A DNA stretch of 64,000 bases, taken from assembly GCF_964204645.1 (NCBI RefSeq), contig NC_134030.1, positions 22,635,210 through 22,699,209 of the forward strand, read 5' to 3'. The stretch comes from Tubulanus polymorphus. Lineage: Eukaryota > Nemertea > Palaeonemertea > Tubulaniformes > Tubulanidae. The notes beneath the pieces are model-generated. The model was not told where the DNA came from and made no database searches. It worked only from the letters and a program-made list of their open reading frames with translations. Shown one piece after another: positions 3,001 to 64,000 of this stretch; within the stretch, counting starts at the first letter, position 1; the number at the start of each line of letters is the position of its first letter. Made by a program: the position numbers and the translations under genes.

Positions 3001-6000
3001 GATCAAGTGTTCAATGATTTGTACACGTTCTGTTTGGTGAATCTGAATCCGAAGATGGATGTGTTACAGTGTAATCAAATCAAACAGGTAACCTACAGAA
3101 CCCTGTGAGAGCCACAATATTGAACATCTGTTTAAACTGATATTTCACTGCTGCTATCTATATCAAGTCTTCAGGGGCCGGTTGCATAGTCATGACTTAG
3201 ACTTAAGACCAGTCTAAGACCAACTTAGTTCTATAGCCAATCTAACAACTTAAGACCAGTCTTAAGATTTAAGACCACTTTTGGACTTAAGTCAAGACAC
3301 TTAAACTGGCCCCAGGGGCTGGTTCCTCAGTTGAGACTTAAGTCAAAAAATGGTCTTAAATTCTAAGACTGGTCTTAAGTTGTTAGATTGGTTATAGAAC
3401 TAAAATGAACTAAGACTGGTCTTAAGTTGTTAGATTGGCTATAGAACTAAAATGAACTAAGACTGGTCTTAAGTTGTTAGATTGGTTATAGAACTAAAAT
3501 GGTCTTCAATTGCTCTTAAGTCTAATCCGGGCCCCTGATATCTATTTGAAATTACAGTCAAATTTTGACCGAGTAGATCTGAACTGGTGACTGAAATATA
3601 ATTCTCATGTGGTTGTGTTTTGTATTTTAAGGCGTGCGATCTGTTGGAGGGTTTAATACCGAGTAAAGACGATAAAGGCTCGCTGTCTAAAGACTGGTTG
3701 GAGAAACTGTTTATATTCGCGTTGATGTGGAGTCTGGGAGCGTTGATGGAACTGGACGATCGCGCTCGTATGGAACGGTTCCTCGTCGAACACGACAGTC
3801 GTTTGAATCTGCCGCGCGTACAGGACGGCGAAACGATATTCGAATACGTCGTATCCGAGACGGGAACGTGGCAACACTGGCGAGAACGCGTCGACGAGTA
3901 TCTGTATCCGAGCGATAGCGTTCCCGAGTTCTCCGGTATTCTCGTGCCGAACGTCGACAATGTAAGAACGAATTTCCTCATGGATACGATCGCTAAACAG
4001 AACAAGGTAAACATTCGCACCCATTTATTACCCGATTGTAATAATCTATGATTCGAAAACGAATCTACAGGCGCGTTGCAAGTAATTTTTGATTACCGCT
4101 GCCAAATGCCGATTTTGGACAGGTTCTTAATATTGCCGCGGCGAATTTACTTAATTTCTTAAAAAACGTCAATCAGTAAATTATTGCCACGGCTTTCGCA
4201 GCTGCAGTCGCTGCACTTCCAACACCACTGATCTATTTCAATCGAAAACAAATTGACCCATTTTGTGTAATCTCATGGCAGAAAGTTGCGCCACGCTGAT
4301 AAGTATCGGAGGTTTTCAGATTTGATTTGTTAAGATCGTATAGTATTAGTATATACATGCAGAATGTTAGAAATCAAAGATTACATAATATTCAAAAGAG
4401 GCTGATTAGAAATCTTAAAACATTTGTTGACTATAATCCCCCCCCCCCTGAACTGAGCAGTTCAGAATCAATAGAGGATACTATACTATAGATAGAAAAG
4501 GATCCATTGGAAAACTGCCCTTTTCTGTTGGCATTAAAAATCAGCTTGTTGATTGATTGACCTCTGTGCCTGCTGATTGGTTGTATATTTGAATATTTGA
4601 ACAGGCGGTGTTACTGATTGGTTGTATATTTGAACGGGCGGTGTTACTGATTGGTTGTATATTTGAATATTTGAACATGCGGTGTTACTGATTGGTTGTA
4701 TATTTGAATATTTGAACAGGCGGTGTTACTGATTGGTTGTATATTTGAATATTTGAACGGGTGGTGTTACTGATTGGTTGTATATTTGAATATTTGAACA
4801 TGCGGTGTTACTGATTGGTTGTATATTTGAATATTTGAACGGGCAGTGTTACTGATTGGTTGTATATTTGAATATTTGAACATGCGGTGTTACTGATTGG
4901 TTGTATATTTGAATATTTGAACGGGCGGTGTTACTGATTGGTTGTATATTTGAATATTTGAACAGGCGGTGTTACTGATTGGTGAACAAGGAACAGCTAA
5001 AACGGTGATGATTAAAGGTTACATGTCGAACTACGATCCCGATTTACATCTGAGTAAAAGTTTTAATTTCTCATCGGCGACACTTCCGATAATGTTCCAG
5101 GTACGTTTTAATCTCAGTACCAGTGGCTCGGTTGATGAAACTGGTCGACTTGTACCAACCTTTGAGCAACTGATCCCAGAATAACAGGATACCACAGCAA
5201 CATTATAACCATTGGTTAAACACCGTGTTGTAAAGATAATATAAAATCCCCGCGCACCAAGAATAAAAAGAGTCTGAAATGTTTCCTTGGGCTAGTGTAG
5301 TTTATTCAACGTTTCGACTATATCCCAATAGTCATCTTCAGGAATACTGTATTCCTTGAGCTAGTGTAGTTTATTCAGCGTTTCGACTTTATCCTAATAG
5401 TCATCTTCAGGAATAATGTATTCCTTGAGCTAGTGTAGTTTATTCAACGTTTCGACTATATCCCAATAGTCATCTTCAGGAATACTGATGTTGTTCTCAT
5501 TATAACCATTGATGAAACACTCTGAGTCCGTGTTGTAAAGATAATATAAAATCCCTGCACACTAAGAATAAAAAGAGTCTGAAATGTTTCCTTGAGCTAG
5601 TGTAGTTTATTCAACGTTTCGACTTTATCCTAATAGTCATCTTTAGGAATACTGATGTTGTCGTCATTATAACCATTGATGAAACACTCTGAGTCCGTGT
5701 TGTAAAGATAATATAAAATCCCTGCACACTAAGAATAAAAAGAGTCTGAAATGTTTCCTTGAGCTAGTGTAGTTTATTCAACGTTTCGACTTTATCCTAA
5801 TAGTCATCATCAGGAATACTGATGTTGTCCTCATTATAACCATTGATGAAACACTCTGAGTCCGTGTTGTAAAGATAATATAAAATCCCTGCACACTAAG
5901 AATAAAAAGAGTCTGAAATGTTTCCTTGAGCTAGTGTAGTTTATTCAACGTTTCGACTTTATCCTAATAGTCATCATCAGGAATACTGATGTTGTCCTCA

Positions 6001-9000
6001 TTATAACCATTGATGAAACACTCTGAGTCCGTGTTGTAAAGATAATATAAAATCCCTGCATACTTTGATAACCAACTTTCGAGCAACTGAAGCCTGTATC
6101 CTTGAAATAAAACGCGTACGGTATTTTCTATGAATCGATAGTGAATTATTTTGTGTTTTATCAGCGAACGATAGAGAGTTACGTAGATAAACGAATGGGA
6201 AGCACGTACGGCCCCCCCGGTGGACGACGTATGACTGTATTCGTAGATGATATCAACATGCCGATTATTAACGAATGGGGTGATCAGGTACGTGTCACAA
6301 CACGCTGGTGCTGGACTCAGTTCCACAGTTACTGGACTCAGTTCCACAGTTACTGGACTCAGTTCCACAGTTACTGGATCAAGTTACACAGTTACTGGAC
6401 TCAGTTCCACAGTTACTGGATCAAGTTACACAGTTCTGGTCACAGTTCCATAGTTCTGGATCCAGATCAACAGTTCTGCATCTATTTCCGCTGTTCAGGA
6501 CCGAGTTCCACAGTAATTTCTGGATCTAGATCAACAGTCTTGCATCCAGTTCCACAGTTTTGGTCACAGTTCTGGATCCAGTTCCACATTTGCTGGACCC
6601 AGCGCCACAGTTCTGGATACAGATCAACTGTTTTGGACCCAGTTTCACATTTCTGAACACAGTTGCACAGTTTTGGATCCACAAAATCATGTCCTGCATC
6701 TGTTAAGAATTGATTTGAATGTATTGCTGGTTGTATTGAAGGTAACGAATGAAATCACGCGTCAGATGATGGAGATGAGCGGAATGTATAACCTGGAGAA
6801 ACCGGGTGATTTTACACATATAGCTGATATACAGTTTATAGCAGCGATGATACAACCGGGCGGTGGACGGAACGATATACCGCAACGACTTAAACGTCAA
6901 TTCTCTATATTCAACTGTACGCTACCTTCAAACAACTCCATCGATAAAATATTCGGTACGTATCACACCCCAGTTTATAGAACAGGGGCTGGTTCCTCAG
7001 TTGAGACTTAAGTCCAAAAATAGTCTTAATTAAGACTGGTCTTGAGTTGTTAGATTGGCTATAGAACTAAGATGGTCTTAAATTGGTGTTAAGTCTAAGC
7101 CATGACTATGGAACCGGTCCGAGAGGAGTTGGAACTGCAGGGATGACTGCCACGGCAATAATTTACTGAATAGCGTTTCTCTTTTCTTTGAATATCACAT
7201 TTTTGACAAAATTGAAGTAAATTCGCCACGGCAACATATTCGAACCTGTCAAAAATCGGCAGCTGGCCGCGACAATCAAAAAATGCTTCCAACGCCCCTG
7301 ATATATCAATCATTGTTTTATTGTGCCTATCTTTGTAGGTGTTTATTGTGTCTTTATTTGTAGGTGTTATCGGTGGCGGATATTTCTGCGACACTCGCTT
7401 CAATTCGGTAGTTTGTGAACTCGCTCAACTGCTAGTACCGGCTACTAGAATACTGTGGCAACAAACTAAGGTCAGTGTCCGGTCGCCGTACAACGTTTCA
7501 GAATTACAGTTTGAATATCTGCAGCGAGTTCACCAAATCACAGAGTTGAATCCGAACTCTGAAGTAACGATTAGTTTATTCCTAATCCTAACAACAATCA
7601 CATTTTAACTGTTAACTCGAGAATCGGCTCCAGAAATGTCGACCTATATCTCGGCAACAAAAATCTAGTTCGATAGTTCTTGCTAAGGATTTAACTTCAA
7701 AATTTGATAAACATCGTAAGTTTAACTACTAGTTTAGTTATTTCTAGAGTCAAAGTTAATTGCTACAAATTGTGGAACTGAGTGCAGAACTGTGGAGCTC
7801 TCATACTTACGAGTCAAGTTTCAGACGGTGTTTATTGTTTATTTTGAATCAGGTGAAGATGTTACCGACTCCTGCGAAGTTCCACTATATTTTCAATCTG
7901 AGAGATTTGTCTCGTATTTGGGAAGGAATGTTACACATAGCCGGACCGGAATGCGATGAATCTAGTGTGTTACTCGGTTTGTGGCGTCACGAGGCGACCA
8001 GGGTCATAGCTGACAGGTAATTCTTAGTCTTTCGAGGGCATTTTGAAGAGATTTTTTTGCACGAATTAATTCACATTGACCCTCAGTTGAATCTATACCG
8101 CTTAAAGATTTTCTAAAAATGATTTGTAGGTTTACGAATCCGGAAGATAAGAAATGGTTTCAGGAAGCGGTCGTACGTGTTTGTAAAGAGATCGGCGACG
8201 ACGTCTCCGCGATCATTCCCGACGAGCCGTACTTCGTCGATTTCCTCCGAGACGCTCCGGAACCGACCGGTGACGAACCGGAGGACGCCGACCTCGACGC
8301 GCCGAAAATATACGAGCAGGTTCGTCTCAACATCATCACAGCAAACTGTGGTTGAGTTCATTGTTAATTTGACTATAGATTGGTGAATTTATTTAATTAT
8401 AGATTGGTGAATTTATTTAATTATAGATTGGTGAATTTATTTAATTATAGATTGGTGAATTTATTTAATTATAGATACCTGATTTCGAGTCGTTGAAAGA
8501 ACGATTAAAGATGTTTATGATGATGTACAATGAAACGGTGCGCGGAGCTCACATGGATCTCGTATTCTTCAAGGACGCCATGGTTCACCTCGTTAAAGTA
8601 AGAAACATTTAAAACAAAATGGCCGCCTCCGTCTAGTTCGACTTATGACATCATTCATTTCATCCGTATAACCTTCCAGAACCTTGTTGATCTATGAAAT
8701 AAGCGCTAGCAGAAATGATGTCTGCCTCCATAAATCTCCCTATGACATCATCAAATTGTCTACTAGTGATAGACGCCTCTATAAAAGATGTCCGCCTCCA
8801 TAAATCCCCCTATGATGTCATAAGATAACTTGATTGCTTAACTAAGCAGACTGTTCAATTAAGGATGGCTGCTGCTTCTATCCTCTTTTTGTGACATCAT
8901 CAAATTACCTACTAAAGATTTGATCGTTTAGACACTAACTTTGGCTGCCTCCAAAAATCTGGTGCACAAAACTGATAAGATAAATGATTAAAATGAACTG

Positions 9001-12000
9001 ATTAGATTAAGCAAACTGTTTGATTGCAATACAATTTCATTAGTCACGATGATGGCATTCGTTTTTGCAAGTTCGCTTGAATGAACTTTTGATCAACCAC
9101 GCCCTGCTGCTACTTGTCTGCTGGCTGCCCCAATGATAAGATGTATATATTAGTAGATATCTCGTATAATACGAACACCGCGAGGTAACGCTCTGTCGTC
9201 TGCTGGCTGCCTCAATGATAAGATGTATATATTTGTAGATATCTCGTATAATACGAACGCCGCGAGGTAACGCTCTGTTAGTCGGCGTCGGTGGATCCGG
9301 TAAACAATCGCTAACCAGACTAGCATCGTTCATCGCTGGATATAAAATATTCCAGATCACGTTAACAAGGTACACTCAGGAATAACTGTTCATTCTCTTT
9401 AAAACTGTTCATCGTGAAACTTATTACTAATCTTATGTTTTTCATATTTTTTTATTTGCACATTTTTCAAACAAATTCATTTTCAAATTCTTTACAACGT
9501 TCTCTTAACTTTCCTCCGCTCAAATAACTTGCCTGCCCTGCCCTATCTCTCCCCTTCTCCATCTTCCATCCACTCTTGTCCCTCCTTGCTGCTGCTCCCT
9601 TCTCCCTCTTCCATTCCCACCCACTCCCTCGTTGCTGCTGCTCCCTTCTCCCTCTTCCGTTTTGAACATCTATTTCTCTGTAAACACTTAGCACGTCGCT
9701 GTAGTTCAAGTCTATAGCCAGCTGTGTACGGAATGCCCCCTAGTGGTAAGTACTTCAACCAAATAGCTATCTCCACAAATTGGAGCGACTAGATCTATGT
9801 CAAAATTGTCATGGAAGTCAATTGATGATAAATGCAATGATATTGACTCCGGAGTCATGAGTCGCTTGTCTGTTTTCAGGTCGTATAATGTTTCTAATCT
9901 GATGGATGATTTGAAGTATTTGTATCGTACGGCCGGGGGTGAAGGTCGCGGTATCACGTTCATATTCACCGACAACGAAATCAAGGACGAAGCCTTCCTC
10001 GAATACCTGAATAATATCCTCAGTTCCGGTGAGGTAAGAGTTCCTCGAATACCTGAATAATATCCTCAGTTCCGGTGAGGTAAGAGTTCCTCGAATACCT
10101 GAATAATATCCTCAGTTCCGGTGAGGTAAGAGTTCCTCGAATACCTGAATAATATCCTCAGTTCCGGTGAGGTAAGAGTTCCTCGAATACCTGAATAATA
10201 TCCTCAGTTCCGGTGAGGTAAGAGTTCCTCGAATACCTGAATAATATCCTCAGTTCCGGTGAGGTAAGAGTTCCTCGAATACCTGAATAATATCCTCAGT
10301 TCCGGTGAGGTAAGAGTTCCTCGAATACCTGAATAATATCCTCAGTTCCGGTGAGGTAAGAGTTCCTCGAATACCTGAATAATATCCTCAGTTCCGGTGA
10401 GGTAAGAGTTCCTCGAATACCTGAATAATATCCTCAGTTCCGGTGAGGTAAGAGTTCCTCGAATACCTGAATAATATCCTCAGTTCCGGTGAGGTAAGAG
10501 TTCCTCGAATACCTGAATAATATCCTCAGTTCCGGTGAGGTAAGAGTTCCTCGAATACCTGAATAATATCCTCAGTTCCGGTGAGGTAAGAGTTCGTCGA
10601 ATACCTGAATAATATCCTCAGTTCCGGTGAGGTAAGAGTTACTCGAATACCTGAATAATATCCTCAGTTCCGGTGAGGTAAGAGTTCCTCGAATACCTGA
10701 ATAATATCTTCAGTTCCGGTGAGGTAAGAGTTCCTCGAATACCTGAATAATATCTTCAGTTCCGGTGAGGTAAGAGTTCCTCGAATACCTGAATAATATC
10801 CTCAGTTCCGGTGAGGTAAGAGTTCCTCGAATACCTGAATAATATCCTCAGTTCCGGTGAGGTAAGAGTTCCTCGAATACCTGAATAATATCCTCAGTTC
10901 CGGTGAGGTAAGAGTTCCTCGAATACCTGAATAATATCCTCAGTTCCGGTGAGGTAAGAGTTACTCGAATACCTGAATAATATCCTCAGTTCCGGTGAGG
11001 CAAGAGTTCCTCGAATACCTGAATAATATCCTCAGTTCCGGTGAGGTAAGAGTTCCTCGAATACCTGAATAATATCTTCAGTTCCGGTGAGGTAAGAGTT
11101 CCTCGAATACCTGAATAATATCCTCAGTTCCGGTGAGGTAAGAGTTCCTCGAATACCTGAATAATATCCTCAGTTCCGGTGAGGTAAGAGTTCCTCGAAT
11201 ACCTGAATAATATCCTCAGTTCCGGTGAGGTAAGAGTTCCTCGAATACCTGAATAATATCCTCAGTTCCGGTGAGGTAAGAGTTCCTCGAATACCTGAAT
11301 AATATCCTCAGTTCCGGTGAGGTTAGAGTTCCTCGAATACCTGAATAATATCCTCAGTTCCGGTGAGGTAAGAGTTCCTCGAATACTTGAATAATAGATG
11401 AGTCATTGTTTCATTGATATAAAGGTCAATGATTAAAACAGAAAATGATCTATTTATTTCCTAAAATCAAATATTGGCTGTCAGAAAACCTGTTATCGCT
11501 GCTTTGCAGCTATATTGTATTTGATTTATTTCTAGGTATCTAATTTATTCGCTCGCGATGAATTGGACGAGATTACGCAAGAATTGATCGGGGTCATGAA
11601 AAAAGAGTTTCCGCGTCGACCGCCGACGCAGGAAAACCTCTACGATTACTTCATATCTCGATCGAGAAATAATCTGCACGTCGTATTGTGTTTCTCACCG
11701 GTAAGAGCAGCTCTTTCTTACCTCTTCCTCACCTCGACACCTCTCCTCCCTAACCTCTCTAAATCTTCTGAAAAATCTTGAATGAAATCGGGAAAAACTC
11801 AAGAGAATTTGACGAATTTTACCAAAAACCTGGAAAATGCAAAAGCCTGGAAAACTTGGGAATTTTGCAAAAGAAATCTGTAAAATTGAGGGCCAGTTGC
11901 ACAGTCGTGACTTAAGTCAAAAAGTGGTCTCAAATCTTAAGATCGGTCTTAAGTTGTTAAATTGGTTATAGAACTGAGTTGGTCTTAGACTGGTCTCAAG

Positions 12001-15000
12001 TCTAAGCCATGACTGTGCAACTGGTCCCTGGGAATTTGGATAATGCTATTAACCACATGCTTCTTTATCAATATGTGATTCAATGAAAAATGAATCACTT
12101 GTAGACATTTAAAACCTAGAAATTTCTCCGATTCACTCAGCGGGAATTTGTAAATGAGCGGAAAGTGGCGCCACTCGATCTCCTGATTTCTATACCTGGT
12201 CTAATGTATCCATCTTTTCGTGACCTCTTCCTCACCTCACTCTTTCCCTACTTATCTCACCTCTTCGCCTCTCCCTGTCTCCCCCTCATTAACTCTGTAT
12301 ATGTATGAGTCAATGATTCTGTTTTCTTCAGGTCGGTGAAAAGTTTCGCAATCGAGCTCTGAAATTCCCCGGTTTGATATCGGGCTGCACGATGGACTGG
12401 TTCAGTCGATGGCCTAAAGACGCTCTGATAGCCGTGTCTAATCACTTCCTGGCTAGTTTCAATATCGCCTGTACGGAACACACTAAAAACCAGTTAGTTC
12501 AACTGATGGGCGAGGTACACGACGGAGTAGCGCTTACCTGTACTGAATACTTCCAGAGGTTCGTACTTTAGAGGGCCACTGACCTGGAAAACCAGGGGGC
12601 AGTTTCACAGTCGTGACTTCAGTCCAAAAGTGGTCTTAAATCTTAAGACTGTTCTTAAGTAGTTAGATAGGCTATAGAACTAAGTTGGTCTTAGACTGGT
12701 CTTAAGTCTAAGCCATGGCTATGCAACCGGCCCCAGGGCTCGGTTTTATAGACTGGTATTACCTTTAACCCGGGGGGGGGGGGGCTAACTTAATTCATTT
12801 TCAATTGAGTTAACCCCCGAGTTGAAGTTAGTACCAGTCAATAAAACTGAGCCCTGTAAACTCTGAAAAATCTAGAAAAAACCGGGGGAAACTCTCGGAA
12901 TTTTACCAATTTTGCAAAAAAAAAAGGTGGAAAACTCGGGTTATTGATGCTATTGATGATAGGTGATTCAATCAAATGAATCATTATCAATTTAAAAGAT
13001 GTTTAAACAAAGAAATTTCTCTATTCACCTGACTATTTTTGAGAGTAGTTTCTGCTCGACCAGTTCAAAAGTTTAAAATTCATTTCACTGTGGGATCCAT
13101 GCTCTTTCAAAGAGCGCGACGCCTTAAACAGAAATCAAAATACACGTATCATTTCCAGTTCTTTTTTGTTTAAGACACAAATTATCTTCACGATTGTGCA
13201 ACTGAGTCAAGGGTCCGAATTACTCAAATAATAGTAGTCTAATTGCGGTGAGTGTATTTACAGATATCGCCGTCAGACACATGTCACACCGAAATCCTAC
13301 CTGTCGTTTATAGACGGCTACAAGACGATTTACGGATTGAAATACTCAGAGATCGGCGAACTGGCCGAGCGTATGAATACCGGTTTAGCGAAACTATTAG
13401 AGGCGAGCGAATCGGTGGAACTACTTTCTAAAGAGCTCGTCGTCAAGGAGAAAGAATTAGCGGTGGCCAATAAAAAAGCCGACGCGGTAAGTACCCGTGT
13501 ATCGTTGAGAACCGGATCCCGTTCCGCAGTTCTGAGTTATATTTGAGTCCGATTTCATTTCAGGTATTAATCGAAGTGACGCAGAGCGCGCAGGCCGCCG
13601 AAAAGGTGAAGGCCGCCGTGCAGGTGGTGAAAGATCGAGCTCAGAAGATCGTCGACGAAATCGCAACGGAGAAAGCTTCGGCCGAGGGTAAACTGGAGGC
13701 GGCTAAACCGGCGTTAGCTGAGGCTGAGGCGGCTCTACAGGTCAGTGTTACATATCTTCATTTATACAATTCTACAGACTGAAGTGTTTGACATCGTGAC
13801 AACTGCTGAAGTAGCAAGGCTTTCCATCCCCAAAAAGATACTGTAACTTAAGCTTCATTTAGGTGAAATCTTCTATTTCTGGTAGGGGCGGAAGATATTT
13901 TAAGGGTTGGCTGATTTTCAGAGGGGTGGATGTAGAAATGAGAGGAGAGGCCGTCTGTGGAGAAGAACGCTGAGAGTATCTACTCTGGATCCTCAATAAT
14001 CAGTATCAAAGTTTCATGGTATCCGAGTTCACCGCGGATTAAGTTTATATAAAAACACTGGAATGAATTAAAACATCTTCTAAATGGTGAAATCAAAATT
14101 ACGCGGATTGTTTCATTTCGATTTTAAGTATCGCGACAAAAAATCTAGTATCCTCGGGATCAGCGCAGCAACATCTGATGGTCTGAACTCGTAATGAATA
14201 TTTGCTTATTTCAGACGATAAAAGCGGCCCACATATCGACGGTGAGGAAGCTCGCGAAGCCGCCGCATCTGATCATGAGAATCATGGATTGCGTTTTGTT
14301 GTTGATGCAGAAACGAACTCTACCGGTCGAGATGGATCCCGATCGTCCGTGTATTAAACCGTCCTGGTCGGAATCGCTGAAGGTTCGTTAAGATTCGTCT
14401 CTGGAAATGATTTCGATCGTTGCCGTACAAAAAATAAAACCTGAAATAAATTAATTCTCAAATGATTTTTGACTAGTAAAAAACATACGTTGAAAATAAA
14501 CAGATTTCAACCCTATGAACTCAAACTCAAACTTCAACAATAGGTGTAAAACTGTAGAATCAGGTCCAGTGATGAAAACTGTTCACCAGGGCCCGGTTAC
14601 ATAGACTAGGTATCAAAGTTACCCCTTACTCAACCACTGTAGTAACAATGAGAAACCATGGTTATAACTGACAAATTTCAAAATGTTTCCAGCCCGGATT
14701 ATTTTGCTTCCACATCTATGAAACCCACGCCTTCAGTTCTACAGTTTTTGGCTAAATTTGACTCATATAGAATTAGAATCGGTTAATTTAAAATGTTTTA
14801 ACTTAACGCTAAATTTCAACTGTGAACTGTAAAACTGGATCCGCTTTAGCAGTCATAAGTTTAAAGAGATTAAAATAGTTTATTTCCAATAACTCTCAGT
14901 CAAATCATAACTCACAACTGTGGAACTGGATCCAGGGGCCGGTTTCATAGTCATGGCTTAGACTTGAGACCAGTCTAAGACCAACTTAGTTGTAAAGCCA

Positions 15001-18000
15001 ATCTAACAACTTAAGACCAGTCTCGAGATTTAAGACCATTTTTGGACTTAAGTCACGACTGCAACTGGCCCCTGGGCCCGGTTCCTCAGTTGAGACTTAA
15101 GTCCAAAAATTGTCTTAAATTCTAAGACTGGTCTTAAGTTGTTAGATTGGCTTTACAACTAAGTTGGTCTTAAATCGGTCTTAAGTCTAAGCCATGACTA
15201 TGGAACCGGCCCCAGGATCCTAAATCTGAGAAAAGATTTTCAGTTTTCTGCCGCTTTCAGTTCAAACCTGTGACTGTGTAATGAATAAAACCCGCCCAGC
15301 CCTGCCGGCCCGCCATGGGCTGTGTTGTGTCCGGGGGCTGTTTTTTATCTTACAGTTGATGAGTAATTCGACGTTTTTGAGCAGTTTACAAACGTTTCCG
15401 AAAGACACGATTAACGAGGAAACGGTTGAGCTCCTCGCGCCGTACCTCGCAATGGAAGATTACTCGTTAGAGTCGGCGAAGAAAGTGTGCGGCGACGTCG
15501 CCGGTTTGTGCTCGTGGACGAAAGCCATGGCGATATTCTACGGCATCAACAAAGAGGTTTTACCCTTGAAGGTACGAAAATAGTTTCATATCCGAATTGC
15601 TTGGGATTATCGCATGCTTCGCGTAATGGCAAAATGTTTTAGATTTTACTTCTGAAATTCATACTGTATACAATAACGGCCAATCGTCGCTCCAACTGCT
15701 CTGGACAAATTTGGTCCAACTTGAGTGGAGGCTACTGGAGTGTCCAACTCAGATATCGCTCTCAAGTCAAAAGATCTGACTTGAGCGGAGTCTACTGTAT
15801 CATCAAAGTCAGATATCACTCTCAGGTCAAAAGATCCAACTTGAGCGGAGTCTACTGTACCATCCAACTCAGATATCACTCACGAGTCAAAAGATCAGAC
15901 TTGAACAGAGTCTACTGTATCATCCAACTCAGATATCACTCTCAAGTCCAAAGATCTGACTTGAGCGGAGTCTACTGTATCATCCAACTCGGATATCACT
16001 CTCAAGTCAAAAGATCAGACTTGAACAGAGTCTACTGTATCATCCAACTCAGATATCGCTCTCAAGTCAAAAGATCAGACTTGAACAGAGTCTACTGTAT
16101 CATCCAACTCATATATCACTCTCAAGTCAAAAGATCAGACTTGAACAGAGTCTACTGTACCATCAAATTCAGATATCACTCTCAAATCAAAAGATCAGAC
16201 CTGAGTGGAGTCTACTCTACCATCCAACTCGGATATCACTCTACCGAGTGTACGGTTTCAAAAAACCTTCAAATATAGATAGTTATGATTTTTGCTGAGG
16301 TTTAGAAGGATTGTTTTTATATCATAGGCGAATCTGGCTGTGGCTGAATCTCGATTGAAAGTCGCTCAGGCCGAATTGGATAAAGCCCAGGCTGAATTGG
16401 ACGCCAAGCAGAAAGAATTGGACAAAGTACAAGCGATGTACGACGCGGCCATGGCTGAAAAACAGGTTAGATCAAATACTCGGCTGTTAGCCAGCTCTCT
16501 GAAATAATACACTGAGTAATGAAATGTTTGAAACTGGAGTCGAGGAGGTTAAGCGTGAGGTTGTGGAGGTTAGCGGAGAGGTTGTGGAGGTTAACCGTGA
16601 GGTTGTGGAGGTTAACCGTGAGGTTGTTCGTGTTTTAGATGTTGATGGATGACGCCGAATCTTGTCGTAAGAAAATGGAAGCTGCGTCTGCTTTGATCGG
16701 CGGTCTCGGAGGAGAGAAAGTTCGCTGGACGCAACAGAGTAAAGAATTCAAAGCGCAGATCGCCAGGTTCGTTACTGGGTCCAGTTCCACAGTTCTGGGT
16801 TAAGATTTGACTCTTAAGATCGAAAATTAACTACCAGTAACTTAAACTCAGAGTTAACTCTAACTGTCAACTGTGGAACTGAACCATGAGGAAGCAGTGC
16901 TTAAGATTTAGATTAATTCACGGGACCCAGCCGTGTTGCTCGAACTGTTTTCTGATTATAGATTAGTCGGCGATGTACTGGTGTGTACCGGGTTCCTGTC
17001 GTACTCGGGACCGTTCAATCAGGAATTCCGTACTCAACTGCTGCAGAACTGGCAGCGTGAACTCAGTCGTAGGGATATACCATTCACAGAGAATCTCAAT
17101 CTTATTAATATGCTCATTGACGCGGCATCGGTAGGTGTACGCGCAGCGTCTCTTAAAACATCATCTATCTTATTTTTGATGCAAAACATCTTAAATTCAC
17201 TAATCAGCATCTTAAATTAAATGCAAAACATCTTAATAAGATAAAATCCCACTATTTACAGATTAAAAGAATTTAAAAACCAGAATTTATTTATTAAAAA
17301 TAAAATATTTAAAAGACACGATGTTTCGATCTCACCCTAGAGATGTGTGTCAGGTGCGTCACACCTGACGATGATCTCTAGGGTGAGATCGAAACGTCGT
17401 GTCTTTTAAATATTTTATTTTGAATAAATAAATTCTGGTTTTTAAATTCTTTTAATCTGTAAATAGTGGGATTTTATCTTATTATCCGTTCACCACGTTT
17501 GAGTGTGGTCATCGTCCTGCAAAACATCTTATTTTCAAAGCAAAAACATGACATCTTAGATTCAAATTTCAGAAGGGCTAAAAGGTCGTAGATTATCTAT
17601 TTTTTTTGTAGATCGGAGAATGGAATTTACAAGGTTTACCGAGCGACGACCTCTCAATACAGAACGGTATAATAGTTACGAAAGCGGCTCGGTATCCACT
17701 ACTGATCGATCCCCAGGGGCAGGGCAAAGCATGGATCAAAAACAGGGAGAAAAATAACGAGCTTCAGGTAAAGCAGGCTGCAGAGTCGTAGTGACTTCCC
17801 ACATCTATACTGAGTTCAAACTGTAGTCGTAGTGACTCTCCGCGTCTATACTGAATTCAAAATTGTTCTTGTAAATCCCCTTTTTCAACCAGTCACCACT
17901 GATGCATGGTTCCTGTTGTATAATAGTATCTATTCATCTCTTTTTGGGTAAGATCACCGATGAAATACTTGGGAATTTTGAATTCAGTATTTGGTGGTTA

Positions 18001-18864
18001 CCATGAAAAAAAAAGTCGAAGAAACTCCCAACATCTATCCTGACCCTAAATCAGACTTAAAGTTTTAAGCAAAGCCCATCGAGGGAGTTCTCAATCCGTC
18101 CACGAATAGACTTGTGTTAGTAGATTAGGTTTTAGAGTCAGTTATGGGTGAGATTGAACCGGACCTGTTTCAGATATTTCAGATCTATCAGGTTTTAGAG
18201 TCAGTTATGGGTGAGATCAAACCGGACCTGTTTCAGATATTTCAGGTCTATCAGGTTTTAGAGTCAGTTATGGGTGAGATTGAACCGGACCTGTTTCAGA
18301 TATTTCAGATCTATCAGGTTTTAGAGTCAGTTATGGGTGAGATTGAACCGGACCTGTTTCAGATATTTCAGATCTATCAGGTTTTAGAGTCAGTTATGGG
18401 TGAGATTGAACCGGAACCTGATTCAGATATTTCAGATCTATCAGGTTTTAGAGTCAGTTATGGGTGAGATTGAACCAGAACCTGATTCAGATATTTCAGA
18501 TATATTATTTATTTTTTCAGGTGACATCTTTGAATCATAAATATTTCCGAACTCACCTGGAAGATGCTCTGTCGCTGGGACGACCGTTACTCATAGAGGA
18601 TGTCGAGGAAGATCTCGATCCGGCCCTTGATAACGTGTTAGAGAAAAACTTCATCAAATCCGGTTCCACTTTTAAGGTAATTTTGTTGGCGATACTTTCT
18701 GATTTAATTTCATGAGGATCCTAAATTGCTTTCTTCGTATTTTCGTAAACCTGGGATCAGTTTTACAAAAACATTTGAACGGACTTATTTACTTCATTGA
18801 TTCAATTCATCTTAAATGGATTTATGAGTTGCGTATCATTTCTGTTTAACCCGGCTGATGCAGC

Positions 18865-18940
<76 letters not shown>

Positions 18941-21900
18941 ATTAAATGATTAAATGATTTATTTCTATGATGTGATTTTGTGATTTTCAGGTGAAAGTCG
19001 GTGATAAAGAATGTGACGTAATGAATAATTTCTATTTGTACGTGACGACTAAACTACCGAATCCTGCCTATACACCTGAGGTACATTTCTACTAGACAGG
19101 GAGACACAGAGAAAGTCTGGTCTAGAGGGTAGGGAAAGAGGGAGTCAGGAGAGATAGTATGGTCTGGAGGGTAGGGAAAGAGGGAGACACAGAGATAGTC
19201 TTGTCTGGAGGGTAGGGAAAGAGGGAGACAAAGAGATAGTCTGGTCTGGAGGGTAGGGAAAGAGGGAGACGCAGAAATAGTCGGGTCTGGAGGGTAGGGA
19301 AAGAGGGAGTCAGGAGAGATAGTCTGGTCTGGAGGGTAGGGAAAGAGGGAGTCAGGAGAGATAGTCTGGTCTGGAGGGCAGGGAGAGGGGGAGTCAGGAG
19401 AGATAGTCTGGCCTGGAGGGCAGGGAGAGGGGGAGTCAGGAGAGATAGTCTGGCCTGGAGGGTAGGGAGAGGGGGAGTCAGGAGAGATAGTCTGGCCTGG
19501 AGGGTAGGGAAAGGGGGAGACACAGAAATAGTCGGGTCTGGAGGGCAGGGAGAGGGGGAGTCAGGAGAGATAGTCTGGTCTGGAGGGCAGGGAAAGGGGG
19601 AGTCAGGAGAGATAGTCTGGTCTGGAGGGCAGGGAGAGGGGGAGTCAGGAGAGATAGTCTGGCCTGGAGGGCAGGGAGAGGGGGAGTCAGGAGAGATAGT
19701 CTGGTCTGGAGGGCAGGGAAAGGGGGAGTCAGGAGAGATAGTCTGGTCTGGAGGGCAGGGAGAGAGGGAGACACAGAGATAGTCTGGTCTGGAGGGCAGG
19801 GAGAGGGGGAGTCAGGAGAGATAGTCTGGCCTGGAGGGTAGGGAAAGGGGGAGACACAGAAATAGTCGGGTCTGGAGGGCTGGGAAAGGGGGAGTCAGGA
19901 GCCACTCATAGCACTGACGTCTGGTGGTTTATAACAGGAAATCAGGGAAGAAATCTTTTCTTTAAAAAGGTCGTGAATTTTGTTCATAAAATGCAAAAAA
20001 TTGGGGGAAAAAACAACGTGCATGACAAGCGATAGTTAGGGAAATGCAAGTGAAATGAAAGTATCCGTTGTCAGTCACCCGGCAGTGTTTTAAGTGTGTG
20101 ATGTTTGTATTGTAGGTGAGCGCTCGAACTTCTATCATTGATTTCACCGTAACGATGAAAGGTCTCGAGGATCAACTGCTCGGACGCGTCATCCTGACCG
20201 AGAAACAGGAATTAGAAGCCGAACGCACGAAACTGATGGAAGACGTCACGGCGAATAAGAGAAAGATGCAGGAATTAGAGGATAATCTATTGTATAAACT
20301 AACCAGTACCAAGGTATGTTCACCCACCCCCTTAAAATACCTCTCAATGACTCCACGCCTGACTAAGAGATGTCACTACTCTTTTATAGACCTCAATTAC
20401 TACAGAAATTATCAGTCATCACAAGATCAGAATAATTTCTAGTTATTACAATATTTTTCACAACTCAATAGATGGCTAAAACTACTCCATAATGGAAATA
20501 CATTGTACCAGATCCTCCGGGTCTTTTCAGCTTCGAAGACCTTCATATTTTGAGTACCTCGAAAGGTCTAGGCCTAATTTACATCAAAGGGATGATTTTG
20601 TTCACAAAGAAATCTGAAAAAGAGTATTTTCAGAAAATAAGGATAGCTTTTTGTCAAAAATTCTTGGAACGTACTATTTTTCCCGATTACACTTATGTGG
20701 CCCTATAGAAATTGCTCGGACCTTCCACGTGTTACCCCTAGAGCCTCACTAACAGGTATTTAGAAGAATTATTGTACGGATGTTTTAGGGGTCGTTAGTT
20801 GAAGATGAATCGTTGATATCAGTGTTAGCGATCACTAAAGAGACAGCAGCCGAGGTCAGCGAGAAACTGGCGGTCGCCGCTGACACCGAGATTAAAATCA
20901 ACGAGGCCAGAGAGGAATTCAGACCAGGTACGTAAATTATCCTAAATATCTAGACTTCGTATCACGTACCTTCAAAATGTTCCCTACTAGGGAAAATCTC
21001 AGAAACTCCATCACAGAAACACTCCTGTGAATATCTGTAAGTCTCGTATTCGTGAAAGACCCCTCGACTCTGTGCTCCACCGCAGAAACTTCATCATAAA
21101 ACAATAATTCTTTCGAAAACTAGCGGCTTTTCATACCAGGCATTGATGAAAAACTCCCTGAAGTATAAAATCCCCACTCTACAAATTAAAAAAAAGGTCA
21201 CAAATGTTTCCTTGCAGGAGGAATGCTATAGTTTTATCGAATGTTTATGCTATAGTTTCATCTTTAATGTGGGATTTTGTATTACTTTCCTACATTTTTC
21301 TGTTTAACTGATGTAATTGTTGTTGTATATTTCAGTGGCGACGCGAGGCAGTATTCTATATTTAACTGATGTAATTGTTGTTGTATATTTCAGTGGCGAC
21401 GCGAGGCAGTATTCTATATTTAACTGATGTAATTGTTGTTGTATATTTCAGTGGCGACGCGAGGCAGCATTCTATATTTAACTGATGTAATTGTTGTTGT
21501 ATATTTCAGTGGCGACGCGAGGCAGTATTCTATATTTAACTGATGTAATTGTTGTTGTATATTTCAGTGGCGACGCGAGGCAGTATTCTATATTTAACTG
21601 ATGTAATTGTTGTTGTATATTTCAGTGGCGACGCGAGGCAGTATTCTATATTTAACTGATGTAATTGTTGTTGTATATTTCAGTGGCGACGCGAGGCAGT
21701 ATTCTATATTTAACTGATGTAATTGTTGTTGTATATTTCAGTGGCGACGCGAGGCAGTATTCTATATTTAACTGATGTAATTGTTGTTGTATATTTCAGT
21801 GGCGACGCGAGGCAGTATTCTATATTTAACTGATGTAATTGTTGTTGTATATTTCAGTGGCGACGCGAGGCAGTATTCTATATTTAACTGATGTAATTGT

Positions 21901-39945: not shown

Positions 39946-40004
39946 ATCAGTTTTCCTCAAATCATCAAGTAAAGCTTTTTACGAAAAATTATGTACATTT
40001 TATT

Positions 40005-40244: not shown

Positions 40245-40623
40245 TATCTGGTTCAGTAATAGTTCTCTTTGTAAGCCCGGTTTCCAGTTCAATCTGGTTC
40301 AGTAATAGTTCTCTTTGTAAGCCCGGTTTCCAGTTCAACCCGGTTCAGTAATAGTTCTCTTTGTAAGTCCGGTTTCCAGCTAAATCTGGTTCAGTAATAG
40401 TTCTCTTTGTAAGCCCGGTTTCCAGTTCAACCCGGTTCAGTAATAGTTCTCTTTGTAAGCCCGGTTTCCAGTTCAACCCGGTTCAGTAATAGTTCTCTTT
40501 GTAAGTCCGGTTTCCAGTTCAATCCGGTTCAGTAATAGTTCTCTTTGTAAGTCCGGTTTCCAGTTCAATCTGGTTCAGTAATAGTTCTCTTTGTAAGCCC
40601 GGTTTCCAGCTAAATCTGGTTCA
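40245..40623 (-). repeat. Exon-edge minisatellite of the RBBP5 stop region (~46-bp unit, nine copies)
   Basis: Each unit repeats the final codons of RBBP5 with the stop (minus strand: ttacaaagagaactattact + ga) plus 20-odd 3' UTR bases. The copy nearest the exon is the real C-terminus. The others lie in the 3' UTR. Confidence 0.92.
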
Positions 40624-43600: not shown

Positions 43601-46388
43601 TGCCCGGTAGCGTGGAATTCCACATATAGTTCCACACTTGTGGATCTCAGTGTTAAAAGAACCCAATTACCCACAGATCTGGCTCTGTTGTTCTAAGTCA
43701 AATTTCCACCAAGTAATGGAGTATTTAATCGGTGTGATTTTCTAATAGAAGTGTACAGTATATTCAGTTAATTACTCACTTGCCACGACGAGCAAACTCA
43801 ATTGATTTAATAGCTGTTGTACTCGATGACCCCGTCGTCACGCGGAACGATGCCATTAATTTCATCGACTTTGTTTCGAACACGAGCATCCGGCCTTTAG
43901 CATTACCCGTGTAGATGTACTGTCCGCGTCGGTCGAACGCAGCTACGATATTCAAATCAGACTGAAAATACAACAGAGACACCTGGTGGATCCTCACTTG
44001 CCAAGACGGAATCCTCTATTGCCGCAGTAGTTGATCCTACTGCACACTAGTGACACATGGTGGATCCTCACTTGCCGCAAGTGGAATCCTCTTTTGCCAC
44101 AGTAGTTGATATCCTACTGCACACTAGCGACACCTGGTGGATCCTCACTTGCCACAGCTTGAATCCTCTATTGCCGCAGTAGTTGATGTCCTACTGCACA
44201 CTAGCGACACCTGTTGGATCTTTGCTTGCCAAAAGTGGAATCCGCTATTGTTCCAGTAGTTGAAGTCCTACTGCACACTAGTGACACCTGGTGGATACTC
44301 ACTTACTTGTAGCCAGTGCTGAACAACGTCAATATTTAAGAGAAAAGGGGTCTAGATATCAGAGAGTTAACTTACATCATCGTCTAAAGGAACTACTGTG
44401 CTGCCATCTATAACATCCATTAGAACAGCCGCATGTTTCACTGGACAAACGAGAAACTTATTGCTGCAACAAAAATTAACCATGATTAAATAACTCTCTC
44501 TTTCTGTAGAGATTCTCATTCTGACGGGTTTATGATTGAGTCAGTACCTGTTACGCGGGTGAAACTGTATTTTCAGTATCGGTGACGGAAATCGATAAGT
44601 CTTATCACATTCACCTGATAATACATCCCACACTGATACGGTATTATCAGTGGAAGCGCTCAGTAGTTTCTGACCATTTCGATTCCAGCTGTAATATACA
44701 CAAATATTCATTAGAATCAGACTATAATTTATGATGTAGGATCCATTTGTTTTGTGTCAATCTCAGGAACTCTGGAATTTTGACATCTTTATCGCAACAA
44801 AATACCAGGGGTCGGGTTTTTTAGACTGGTATTAACTTTAACTCTGGGGCTAACTGAATCGAAAAGATGACTTGAGTTAACCCCGGCCGGGTTAAAGTTA
44901 ATACCAACCATATAAAACCGACCCAAGAATTGTTCACAATTTTTCTAATGCCAAGGTTCGAATACATTTAACATCGAAATGTTTTCAGACATTTCTTGAT
45001 TCACAGATTATTCAAAATTTCCAAAGTGTGAATCTGATCCTATCAATGCCATTGAGGAATTGCAAACTGAATTTAAAAGAAAGGCAATTTTTCGGGATGT
45101 GCACGCACACCTACCTGAGTGAGCAAACCGGATGGACGTGGGACTGGATGATTTTGGCGATCCCTCGAGTTAGGAAATCCCAGACGACTATACGTCCGTC
45201 GTTGCAGCCGACCGCGAGCATCGTGCCACGTTTATTGAAAGTACACGTGACGGCGATACTGACGCAATCCAACGTTCCATCAAAATCCTATCAAACAGAC
45301 AATTATAGAGACTTTCAGTTAAAATCAGTTCAATTTCACGCACTGGGCACAGATTTGTAAATTGTAATTTCTGATCTGTATAGAATAACATTGTAAATTG
45401 TAATTTCTTATTTGTAAATTCCGATCCTGGATCCGGTTCCACAGTTGTGAATTAAGATATTAGATCTTATCTATTCAAGACCTGTTTTAGATCATTTTTG
45501 TTCAATAGCCAAACGACTTAAAATCAGGCTTAAGATTCTAAGTCAACAGGGCCCAGAACCCGGTTCCACAGATTTGTGTTAAGATTTAACTCAAAAGTAA
45601 ACTAATCGATGAAAATGAACTGACTTTAACTCAGAGTTAACTCTAACTCACAACTGTGGAACTGGATCCTGAACTGGGTTCTGTTTCTGTTGTACAGTCG
45701 TGAGTGAAGTTCAATTAAACTATGCTTAAACTAAATTGACAATAGAATATAGTCTAAAGACTGGCCTCAAATCAATAAAACAATGCCTCGGCAATGCTGA
45801 GCCCATTGTGATTCAATCACTGATAGATCTTACCTCGGGATAATTTTGACCAAACGATTCTGAAAAAAAGATGTCAAAAGAAAATCTTCAGTTCAGTAGT
45901 AAGTAAAATAATTTGACATTTAGAACCGCCTTTCAATGAAGACTTTTTGAATATCCTTCAATCAGTGTAAAATGAAATGGATTAAAAATCAATGTTTTAT
46001 AGGTCAGCTGCCAGTGCTTTCTGGTCCTAACTTCTATCAGGTATGCACCACCAGAACTGACAGAGGTAGGCCACCTTATGTCCTCTCAAGCTGAAGGAGA
46101 CATTAGTCAGTAAAGCAAGGTAATTAAAAATCGCCACTTCACAATTCTATATCATTATTAGGGAGGTACGCAGAAAAAAACTTAAATTCTGAACACAAGT
46201 TCTCACTCCTCACTGTATTATAATTGCTAGAAACATCCGAAAATAGTAAAATAATCGCGGAAAGGCCCAGTACTAGTAGTAGAGTGAACGTCAGAGTGGC
46301 CCCTGGCAGGCGAATGATGGTTGTTCAGTAAGGATGTTTTCAGTAGCTTTACAGCGATTAAATTCATACCTAACAATTCTAAATTCAT
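40621..46388 (-). CDS. RBBP5: RBBP5, WD40 core subunit of MLL/SET1 (COMPASS) H3K4 methyltransferase complexes
   Basis: There are fourteen coding exons in minus-strand order: 46388-46370, 45859-45834, 45287-45115, 44688-44548, 44463-44376, 43961-43780, 43381-43262, 42757-42604, 42517-42446, 42025-41908, 41454-41388, 41250-41148, 41042-40919 and 40757-40621. They make 507 residues (human 538) with all phases consistent. The start [15 protein letters not shown] matches vertebrate RBBP5 almost exactly. A WD40 propeller follows ([55 protein letters not shown]). The ASH2L-binding region follows as [19 protein letters not shown], then an acidic hinge and a Lys-rich tail ending KENYY. The protein scaffolds WDR5, ASH2L and the SET enzyme in the nucleus. 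Exon 7 and the last exon border tandem arrays derived from their own ends. Confidence 0.97.
41284..41385 (+). repeat. G-rich tandem repeat 'gggggtggggg tactgtta'
   Basis: Three to four copies occur in an RBBP5 intron next to the donor at 41387. Many G-runs could form G-quadruplexes. Confidence 0.8.
41465..41905. repeat. Dispersed repeat family D, four to five units
   Basis: Units contain tttgatgatgtcataggggg and atggaggcagacatcttttc. They fill the RBBP5 intron 41455-41907. Confidence 0.8.
42079..42210. mobile_element. Foldback MITE family A, copy 9
   Basis: It runs from gaggccagttgcacagtcgt to atgcaaccggccccagg with the usual core. It is in an RBBP5 intron. Confidence 0.75.
43046..43250 (+). 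repeat. Tandem repeat 'gatgagatggaagggct'
   Basis: Ten or so ~18-bp units in the RBBP5 intron after exon 43381-43262 (minus-strand order). Confidence 0.9.
43351..43580 (-). repeat. Exon-edge minisatellite at the acceptor of RBBP5 exon 7 (40-bp unit, six copies)
   Basis: Units start at 43351, 43391, 43431, 43471, 43511 (30 bp, truncated) and 43541. Each holds the exon start (minus strand ttgtttcctggtgaattcag) and attgtag acceptor, except the truncated one, which lacks ten exon bases. Only the 43381 junction is followed by the whole exon. Confidence 0.93.
43975..44315 (+). repeat. Tandem repeat ~78-bp 'cctggtggatcctcacttgc'
   Basis: Four to five units in the RBBP5 intron 43962-44375. The word ctcacttgcc also occurs at the exon 6 donor (43774-43784), so this array may have been seeded from an exon edge too, but the match is short. 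Confidence 0.8.
44808..44930. mobile_element. Foldback MITE family B, copy 3
   Basis: It runs from gggtcgggttttttagactg to aaccatataaaaccgaccc with an internal ggggctaact/agttaacccc pair. Confidence 0.7.
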
Positions 46389-56225: not shown

Positions 56226-56283
56226 CTGTTTGTCCGCCTCCCCGTCGGTAGATGATTAATGATATAATGATTATTAATTGTAG

Positions 56284-62300: not shown

Positions 62301-64000
62301 GTACACGGGCGGGGTCACGGGTACACAGGCGGGCGGGGTCACGGGTCACTCATCCGTCCAGAAAAACCTGTTTTACCCATTGAGATATTCAGTGATACAG
62401 GTACATTATATAGACTCACACACGGGCGACTGGGCGGGCGGGGTCACGGGCAGGCGGGCAGGCGGGGTCATGGGTACATGGGCAGGCGGGGTCACGGGTC
62501 ACTCATCCGTCCAGAAAAACCTGTTTTACCCATTGAGATATTCAGTGATACAGGTACGTTATATAGACACACACATGGGCGTCCGGGCGGGGTCACGGGT
62601 ACACGGGCAGGCGGGGTCACAGGTACGTAGGCAGGTGGGCGGGCAGGGTCACGGGTACACGGGCAGGCGGGGTCAAGGGTACACGGGCAGGCGGGGTCAC
62701 AGGTCACTCATCTGTCCAGAAAAACCCATTTTACCGATTGAGGTATTCAGTGATACAGGTGGACTGGATTTGATGTTTTAAAAACTGGCTCCTTGCGTAC
62801 TATGGAGTGGAACTGTGGACAGTGTGGATAATTAATGTGGATAATGAGGATGATTTGTGTTTTTCAGGTGGAGGTTCATCATCAGCCGAAACGAACGAAC
62901 CGTTAGATCAGATTATCACCCTGACGAACACCGCTCACGACCATCGACAACAACAACCGCAACAATCGCACGACAGATTAACGACGATATCGTCGTCAGG
63001 CGTGAATGATGAAGATGAAGATGAATTAAGAGGAGTTTTCTCACCGGAGACGGATCTAACTCTCGATCAGCACGAGTCTAAAATACTGGAGGACAACGAT
63101 ATCAACGACGTTCTAAATAAACTACCGGACGATGCATTTCATGAGTTGTTTAATACGGGTATGTGGGGCAGGGGTAGGTGTACAGCAGGGGTAGGTGTAC
63201 AGCAGGGGTACGTGAGGCAGGGGTAGGTGTACAGCAGGGGTACGCGGGGCAGGTGTACAGTGTACAGCAGGAGATTGTGTACAGCAGGGGTAGGTGTATA
63301 TTGTACAGCAGGGGAAGGTGTACAGCAGGGGTTGGTGTACATCGTACAGCAGGGGAAGGTGTACAGCAGGGGAAGGTGGGGGCAGTATTTGAACCAAATT
63401 TCGTGAAGATCTTGGCAGATTCTGTGTCAAATGTTAGGCAGGATCTGAATCGAGACTCTGATAGACAATAGTCGGGAGTGTTCTGGGGAATTTCTGGGAA
63501 ATATCTGGACAGAAAAACTTGCGTAATTCCTAATAAATCGATTTGATGAGAATTAAAGCTGTGAATTTACGAATTGTAGGTAAAAATGGTGATTGTGGTC
63601 CGTCTAAAGAAGAGACTGATGAATTTGAGAAAGCGTTGGCAGCAGTTTCGATGTCAAAATGTGCGAATCTGATTTGTGACGACGACGAACTCACTAAACA
63701 TATCACTGAGACGATCCTGCAACAGGAGGCAGTATCCGACCATCTCGTGGCAGGATTACATCATCATCATCATCATCATACCGGCGGTGTGGCAGGATTA
63801 CAACACGCGGGAGGATTACAACACGCTGAATTACATGCGTCAGGATTACACGCAGCTGGATTACATGCAGGAGCTGGATTACATCACGCAGGAGCAGGAT
63901 TACATCACCCAGGAGCAGGATTACACGTGGCAGGATTACACGCAGGATTACATGACGATAACCTGCAGGCTCTTGCTAACAGTATTACCGAAACAGATCT
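56339..64000 (+). CDS. INO80D: INO80D, INO80 chromatin-remodelling complex subunit D (3' end outside window)
   Basis: Coding exons are 56339-56556, 57361-58541, 59251-59362, 59822-60064, 60704-60810, 61606-61896, 62868-63158 and 63580 to the window end. They make at least 954 residues. The N-terminus (KPLCSYSIKLCKQRRLNGYA, then FCVRHILEDPTAPFKQC and YCNNH) is the first Cys/His zinc-binding module. PKKERKKK follows. The second module lies across exons 5-6 (CLYVKDDVQC, LPYANHC, DYCTAKSTDNTQCCDPVFDI, LCPKHAK), followed by a Lys/Arg-rich nuclear-type segment. Exon 7 encodes an acidic stretch with LNKLPDDAFHELF, and exon 8 starts GKNGD as in vertebrate INO80D. INO80D belongs to the metazoan-specific part of the nuclear INO80 remodeller. 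Exon 8 contains an unusual His/Gly/Leu repeat. Two short upstream ORFs precede the start. Confidence 0.93.
56572..56835 (+). repeat. G-rich array 'ggggtcggggagtgcgggga'
   Basis: Strong G bias on the plus strand runs right after the donor of INO80D exon 1. Open frames on both strands are compositional. Confidence 0.88.
58560..58865 (+). repeat. Tandem repeat 'cctaaaacaaggcagcctgc'
   Basis: About fourteen ~21-bp units follow the donor of INO80D exon 57361-58541. A frame continuing from the exon into it is intron read-through. Confidence 0.9.
59375..59755 (+). repeat. Polypyrimidine CT-rich tract
   Basis: Nearly uninterrupted ctctccctctgcctctc-type sequence in the INO80D intron before exon 59822. 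Minus-strand frames through it (Arg/Glu-rich) are compositional. Confidence 0.9.
60895..61500 (+). repeat. Tandem repeat 'ctgccatatttaggtagttt', 22-24 bp, more than 25 copies
   Basis: It fills most of the INO80D intron 60811-61605. Confidence 0.93.
61845..62763 (+). repeat. Exon-edge minisatellite at the donor of INO80D exon 61606-61896 (seven copies)
   Basis: The exon end (cgtccagaaaaacctgtttt ... gatacag) plus gtacgttatatagac recurs at irregular spacing with GC-rich 'gggcaggcggggtcacggg' spacers. Donor-type junctions lie after 61896, 62001, 62122 and further copies, the last near 62758. The first intronic copy is exactly 105 bases on, in frame and open. Confidence 0.93.
63160..63385 (+). 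repeat. Tandem repeat 'gtaggtgtacagcagggg'
   Basis: About 18-bp units follow the donor of INO80D exon 62868-63158 and contain many GTAGGT words that resemble donors. Confidence 0.88.
63750..63960 (+). repeat. INO80D: In-frame His/Gly/Leu repeat in INO80D exon 8
   Basis: After a run of seven His codons, the frame repeats short units of the form A-G-L-H with Ala/Gly/His/Gln variants, about ten times (codons GCAGGATTACAT and similar). It is not part of any INO80D domain I recall. It looks like a coding minisatellite. Confidence 0.8.

Follow-up and report, generated by a model that had tools for sequence, protein, structure and literature searches.

Tandem repeats spanning exon edges and a stop codon in a minisatellite-rich 64-kb window

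Genes and edge arrays of the window

The stretch analysed here, referred to as the window, is 64 kb of DNA on contig C6 (23.04 Mb, in a genome assembly of 267.8 Mb), 345–409 kb from its end. It carries a DNAH5/8-like dynein heavy chain gene, CCDC97, RBBP5, an INO80D-like gene and an immunoglobulin-domain gene. Tandem Repeats Finder (TRF) returned 109 rows for the window; merged, with periods below 10 bp dropped, they form 44 arrays occupying 14.4 kb (22% of the window). Seven arrays repeat a unit that straddles a coding boundary and includes at least 10 coding nt, and are called definite edge arrays below. They lie at dynein exons 7, 14, 15 and 30, at exon 7 and the stop codon of RBBP5, and at INO80D exon 6. 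All seven had been described in an initial annotation of this DNA, and TRF and reading of the sequence confirmed them.

Exon models of the window came from a self-trained ab initio gene finder followed by correction by eye, and the exon numbering of the initial annotation was kept throughout. Of the 143 edges in the window, about 8 are placed approximately (for example, those at 2305, 7475 and 26022 are not splice sites). The ab initio model of the dynein gene (888..36096, + strand) has 41 exons in the window, and at least two more are unmodelled, leaving two gaps in the alignment of the protein to dynein chains in PDB. The gene starts upstream of the window, with upstream exons in L021/L028. 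RBBP5 (40621..46388, – strand) has 14 coding exons assigned by eye, of which exons 6–8 were aligned to RBBP5; the dynein gene and part of RBBP5 were checked in this way against solved structures. CCDC97 (about 37900–39858, + strand) matches PF09747 in Pfam. The gene that we take to be INO80D contains two PF13891 (zf-C3Hc3H) domains, also found with Pfam.

The two largest edge arrays are in the dynein gene, as are two smaller ones, all on the + strand. At the acceptor of exon 30, a 58-bp unit is repeated 35.1 times (21303..23335, 28 coding nt in the array). This unit joins 33 nt of intron end, including the acceptor, to 25 nt of exon head, and the acceptor joined to the exon body is that of the last copy (exon start 23308). 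At the donor of exon 15, a 46-bp unit in which GTAAGAG follows a 39-nt exon tail is repeated 30.5 times (9995..11396, 39 coding nt), and here the exon-joined donor is the first copy (exon end 10033). The acceptor array of exon 7 (4573..4983, 41 bp × 10.2, 18 coding nt in the array) has a unit of 24 nt of intron end with the acceptor and 17 nt of exon head, and again its last copy is the one joined to the exon, which starts at 4966. The acceptor of exon 14 lies in a simple duplication (9116..9278, 82 bp × 2.0, 40 nt exonic, exon start 9239). A small eighth edge array, overlooked in the initial annotation, is an acceptor duplication at exon 10 (7317..7368, 25 bp × 2.1, 5 nt exonic, exon start 7364).

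The two RBBP5 arrays are on the – strand. The acceptor array of exon 7 (43349..43583, 40 bp × 6, 33 coding nt, exon start 43381) repeats 33 nt of exon head together with an ATTGTAG acceptor, and the copy adjoining the exon carries the exon-joined acceptor. The second array (40246..40651, 46 bp × 8.8, nine copies, 31 coding nt) repeats the last codons, the TGA and 22 nt of 3' untranslated region, and the stop codon joined to the gene is at 40621–40623. The INO80D exon 6 donor array (61846..about 62760, + strand) is less regular: its seven copies are spaced by steps of 105/121/105/173/153/205 bp (irregular copies of 105–205 bp), each with a 51-nt exon tail, the donor and intron sequence, and the exon ends at 61896. 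In all, the repeat unit spans an exon–intron boundary in the six definite splice-edge arrays and at dynein exon 10, and both types of boundary are duplicated, the donors at dynein exon 15 and INO80D exon 6 and the acceptors at dynein exons 7, 10, 14 and 30 and RBBP5 exon 7.

Two further arrays on the + strand are marginal. One ends at the acceptor of dynein exon 13 (8367..8476, 24 bp × 4.6, 2 nt exonic, exon start 8475). The other, at the stop codon of CCDC97 (39854..39949, 23-bp unit, TGA 39856–39858), had been named as a probable member of the class; it does begin at the stop codon, but its similarity reaches only about 5 nt into the coding sequence. Two candidates were rejected. The array at 63157–63378 in the INO80D-like gene overlaps a predicted edge by 6 nt in TRF and, by eye, is not exon-derived; that at 3680–4338 of L021 was considered as an acceptor array, and the next dynein exon begins 84 nt further on, with an acceptor of its own.

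Exon junctions and spare copies

Only one copy of a tandem duplication touches the exon body: the last where the duplication crosses an acceptor, the first where it crosses a donor or a stop codon. The initial annotation had pointed out that the arrays extend to the non-coding side and leave one intact boundary. This anatomy is plainly seen, but it is uninformative, following from the geometry of tandem duplication: because one copy is always joined to the exon body, the direction of extension is not evidence of a mechanism.

Spliced homology crosses five of the seven definite edges unbroken (dynein 6|7, 13|14, 15|16 and 29|30, and RBBP5 6|7). In the alignment to PDB chains, for instance, the dynein junction at exon 14 reads HLVK|ISRIIRT and that at exon 15 reads SSGE|VSNLF. 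Since the spliced protein is unbroken over these five junctions, we take the copy joined to the exon to be the functional one. For INO80D exon 6 the edge was placed by gene model and reading frame, and the donor in use there is taken to be the first copy. The RBBP5 stop was likewise placed by reading frame and gene model.

Most of the spare copies have retained an intact splice-site dinucleotide. Over the seven splice-edge arrays of the window (the definite six and dynein exon 10), AG or GT is kept in 77 of the 85 spare copies: in the dynein gene 2/9 at exon 7, 1/1 at exon 10, 1/1 at exon 14, 28/29 at exon 15 and 34/34 at exon 30, in RBBP5 5/5 at exon 7, and in INO80D 6/6 at exon 6. At dynein exon 7, the AG is lost from seven of the nine spare acceptors by two kinds of change, in a 24-nt stretch at the junction that otherwise hardly varies. 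Silencing of decoy acceptors is a possible explanation of these losses. The two largest arrays are nearly uniform, with 21 of 35 copies equal to the consensus at dynein exon 30 and 23 of 30 at dynein exon 15, and a search of the genome with either unit gave matches at its own locus only.

Translation of the first three spare copies at dynein exons 7, 15 and 30 yields a premature stop in each; at exon 7 these first three copies are without AG, and one AG-bearing copy also gives a stop. The first spare donor of INO80D exon 6 (+105 nt) adds 35 residues and leaves the frame open through the next modelled exon, whereas the five later spare donors do not keep it open. The periods of the clean edge arrays (41, 25, 82, 46, 58, 40 and 46 bp) are not multiples of 3, although the first INO80D step of 105 bp is. 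Periods at edges that are mostly not multiples of 3 are as expected if the spare copies are untranslated. By comparison, the periods of four exonic arrays are 24, 21, 30 and 12 bp.

Edge overlap compared with random placement

The number of edge arrays was compared with a null in which each array was collapsed to one unit and placed at random, but not wholly within an exon, at edge margins of 1, 3, 6 and 10 nt; "definite" here means at least 10 nt on either side of the edge. Beside the window we sampled 300 kb of outside sequence, made up of ten other dynein loci (20 kb each), three myosin loci (10 kb each) and 70 kb of C6 around or near the window. Window and outside sample add up to 364 kb, and an array without relatives in those 364 kb is called private. 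Outside exon edges were those of our own gene finder, which modelled three of the dynein loci (D6, D8 and D9) poorly; these three hold three arrays between them. Rows with periods below 10 bp and arrays in exons (window 38970–39024 and 63812–63952, and one in L030/L023/L029) were dropped, as were two further outside rows inside exons, one at L022 3115–3224 in a better-scoring minus-strand exon (3055–3680), the other at D8 5136–5185 in a dynein exon missed by the gene finder. A predicted "exon" within an array of L029 was excluded before counting, and the edge array at D3 was set as private by hand, its two outside matches being judged paralogous exon sequence. Among the dropped rows, that at 63812–63952 is a 21-bp coding repeat in the INO80D-like gene, and that at L022 3115–3224 is a 30-bp coding repeat in an exon resembling a solute carrier.

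Overall, exon edges are hit about as often as random seeding predicts. In the window, 7 of the 42 non-exonic arrays are definite edge arrays against 3.5 expected (3.48, or about 1 array in 12, exons being dense here; P = 0.04). At a margin of at least 3 nt the count is 9 of 42 against 5.4 (P = 0.07), the nine including the array at 63157–63378 that by eye is not exon-derived. Outside, where 5.4 were expected, 1 of 79 arrays is definite after the drops described above (2 of 81 before, the L022 row having counted as a hit and the D8 row not); among private arrays it is 1 of 49 (2 of 50 before) with 2.7 expected. This lone case is an exon-tail donor array, 63 bp × 4, in a dynein gene on C9. At 3 nt or more, 3 of 81 outside arrays overlap an edge against 8.8 expected (P of so few, 0.016), and after the same drops there are two, the second overlapping a donor of L030 by 4 nt. 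The array-rich neighbourhood on C6 has no definite edge array among its 48 arrays once the L022 row is reclassified.

The initial annotation had held that boundaries are preferred beyond what a random repeat process would give, and the overlap of repeats with exon borders in the 364-kb sample shows a nominal excess in the window and none in the outside sequence. A threefold preference is rejected by the private outside sample (P = 0.0025 for one or fewer). Pooling all 364 kb gives 8 definite edge arrays among 121, against 8.9 expected, and 8 among the 80 private arrays, against 5.0 expected (P = 0.13). A boundary preference as a general rule is not supported. What we observe in the window is a cluster of edge arrays that fails to generalise in this sample, and its excess is nominal, was noted post hoc, and is unreplicated even on the same contig arm.

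The region itself is dense in arrays. Per 10 kb, the window has 6.9 arrays and the first four C6 pieces sampled beyond it have 5–10, compared with 0–3.5 at 13 loci on C1–C4, C9 and C12. The dense C6 pieces are at C6:22.49–22.71 Mb and C6:21.6 Mb; arrays are sparser at other loci near contig ends (C12 at 0.37 Mb, C4 at 2.0 Mb). Over the eleven dynein loci, array density rises with GC content at third codon positions (GC3; Spearman 0.69, P = 0.02), the exons used here having been chosen with a codon model that was itself trained on window sequence. Over the same 1171 codons, GC3 is 0.547 in the window dynein and 0.363 in its close DNAH5/8-type paralogue on C1 (D6). The correlation and the difference between the paralogues both fit a recombination-rich region.

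Not all arrays here are private. Three dispersed minisatellite families, with units of 20 bp (CAGTTCCACAGTTCTG-type), 79 bp and 77 bp, form mostly intronic arrays on several contigs. They occur in the window at 6311–6681, 55820–56227, 41561–41793, 47473–47708 and 43978–44304, in L022, L023, L024 and L028, and at D3 (L005/L006) and D4 (L007/L008); the three families may be parts of a mobile element. C6 also carries a second, divergent dynein-like gene (C6:22490000–22519999, – strand, L029/L023/L030), about 115 kb from the window edge, with acidic insertions between its motor segments.

Origin of the edge arrays and their known relatives

We think it likely that the edge arrays are ordinary, fast-turnover minisatellites of a minisatellite-rich region, some of which happened to catch an exon edge. 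A short tandem duplication would arise at a more or less random site, and the array would then grow and be homogenised by unequal exchange or slippage. A wholly coding unit would persist mainly if it keeps the frame, and an intronic unit would persist freely. A unit straddling an edge or a stop codon could also persist, with one copy still joined to the exon body and the old mRNA still makeable. The remaining copies would turn into intron or 3' untranslated region with spare splice signals, as in the amphioxus repeats discussed below. This scheme presumes use of the exon-joined site and selection against use of the other copies. The near-identity of the two largest arrays and their confinement to their own loci are counted here as signs of rapid turnover.

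Several observations weigh against this reading. Private arrays of the window exceed expectation more clearly than all arrays do (7 of 31 definite, 2.3 expected, P = 0.003), and they differ from private arrays outside (Fisher P = 0.004, computed with 1 of 50). Among the long clean arrays of the window, 5 of 11 are on edges with 1.9 expected (P = 0.03); this count and the Fisher contrast were both examined after the pattern was known. Wrong or missed outside edges depress the observed count more than the expectation. In the dynein exon 30 array, all variation lies in the 25 exon-derived nt, and the 33-nt intronic half with the acceptor is invariant over 35 copies, where simple turnover predicts otherwise. 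Finally, the weak array within a coding exon at D8 5136–5185 has a period of 23 bp, in 2.1 copies. The excess of private edge arrays and an exon 30 unit whose intronic half does not vary are the traces that would be left if, in this region, exon edges were preferred as seeds or survivors, a recombination-rich process building the long arrays and the spliceosome picking the copy farthest from the other end of the intron. We regard such a regional preference as improbable.

More generally, arrays could be seeded or retained by a process tied to edges, such as co-transcriptional R-loops, nucleosome positions or splicing-coupled breaks. The nominal window excess, whether counted over all or over private arrays, is what this would produce. 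It was spotted after the fact, however, and it is replicated neither in the outside sample nor in the C6 neighbourhood. The RBBP5 stop-codon array further argues against a cause in splicing alone, which the initial annotation had considered. This array has the same anatomy as the others without a splice site, indicating that splicing is not required. We therefore consider an edge-tied mechanism unlikely.

The repeated exon edge might instead have made or moved the intron itself. Intron gain or sliding of this kind is modelled in the legend of Figure 7 in the amphioxus paper (PMC3087553, excerpt), and the excerpted text of PMC2812944 reports human paralogues in which variable repeats are the putative source of gained introns. 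We compared the window dynein (888–24143) with its paralogue D6 (C1:26649200–26669199, L011/L012), which contains no array in its 20 kb. For introns 6|7 and 13|14, D6 has its introns 24 nt away from the position in the window gene, as gain or sliding could explain. On the other hand, introns 15|16 and 29|30 are at the same positions in array-free D6 and, judged by this shared placement, are older than their arrays. The two genes have no more than about 9 of 28 intron positions in common (compared by eye, a few unclear); with about two-thirds unshared, the lack of two of the four array introns in D6 is unremarkable. A comparison of intron motifs in the dynein genes yielded nothing of use. In addition, the other splice site of the intron lies outside the array in all six definite splice-edge arrays. 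The repeats of the window resemble published cases of intron gain by tandem genomic duplication (PMC4974935, PMC3443670) in that exon-containing DNA is duplicated beside splice signals, but those two features, the external second splice site and the two introns found array-free in the paralogue, set them apart, and we consider intron gain very unlikely here.

It is less likely still that the spare sites are used or sensed, tuning splicing or making isoforms, with their number under selection. The retention of the dinucleotide in 77 of 85 copies and the open frame after the first spare INO80D donor (+105 nt) are in line with such a role. The premature stops given by the copies tried at dynein exons 7, 15 and 30 and by the later INO80D donors argue against it, as do the parts of PMC3087553 and PMC3902484 that report undisturbed splicing in amphioxus genes with mirages. 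The least credible alternative is an assembly artefact that inflated copy numbers or invented arrays: this is a single assembly and very homogeneous arrays of 1.4–2.0 kb are difficult with short reads, but the two largest arrays hold scattered variants in consistent register, units differ between loci, the window contains no N and contigs reach 32 Mb, although none of these points can stand in for reads.

The closest known relatives are the amphioxus "mirages", to which the initial annotation had likened the arrays, and the likeness holds. Judged from sequence, the anatomy of the window arrays is that of mirages. As excerpted from PMC3087553, mirages are tandem repeats over exon–intron edges, at either boundary, of Adh3 and two globin genes (BflGb6 and BflGb9); many copies, though not all, carry AG/GT, reverse-transcription PCR shows regular splicing, and the repeats are unstable in length and somatically. 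PMC3902484, again in part, adds the genes PGBD5 and troponin C. Like mirages, the window arrays have units spanning a 5' or 3' exon–intron edge, with AG/GT in many but not all copies; the units of mirages range from 10 to about 160 bp, and their inner copies evolve in concert. The two largest window arrays have 30–35 copies, compared with 3 and 6 in two BflGb6 haplotypes. Also unlike the amphioxus repeats, one window array spans a stop codon and several genes are affected within 64 kb. The assembly, at 267.8 Mb, is smaller than the 468 Mb in 19 chromosomes given for B. lanceolatum (PMC11907188), a hint against Branchiostoma as the host; searches for COX1 and, without positive control, for GFP-family, annelid linker and molluscan haemocyanin domains gave no match. 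Splicing and length instability have been reported for mirages, whereas the window arrays are known from the sequence of one assembly. Among the open-licence literature, we met "mirage" as a term for such repeats in these two papers only.

Variable minisatellite-type repeats, some at exon–intron boundaries, have also been described in human genes of segmental duplications (PMC2812944, from an excerpt), which takes this anatomy beyond amphioxus. These share with the window arrays minisatellite-sized units, expansion that alters exons or introns and, in some, the position at a boundary. The human examples are cases of paralogy or polymorphism with transcripts, and about half are coding; the window edges, in contrast, belong to conserved genes (dynein and RBBP5) and are known from DNA alone.

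The regional density, for its part, recalls subtelomeric hotspots. In human and other genomes, minisatellites become dense toward the chromosome end, with private units and rapid homogenisation. The window resembles these in its density toward an end, but one contig end was sampled closely and the other near-end loci are poorer.

Arrays of this kind are natural experiments on splice-site choice. At dynein exon 30, 34 perfect acceptors precede the one joined to the exon, and at dynein exon 15, 28 GT donors follow the exon-joined one. The interest that remains is in how the spliceosome handles 34 perfect acceptors and in the window-level excess of edge arrays. If the host of this DNA lies outside the lancelets, mirage-like arrays reach beyond amphioxus, as the excerpt of PMC2812944 already suggests.

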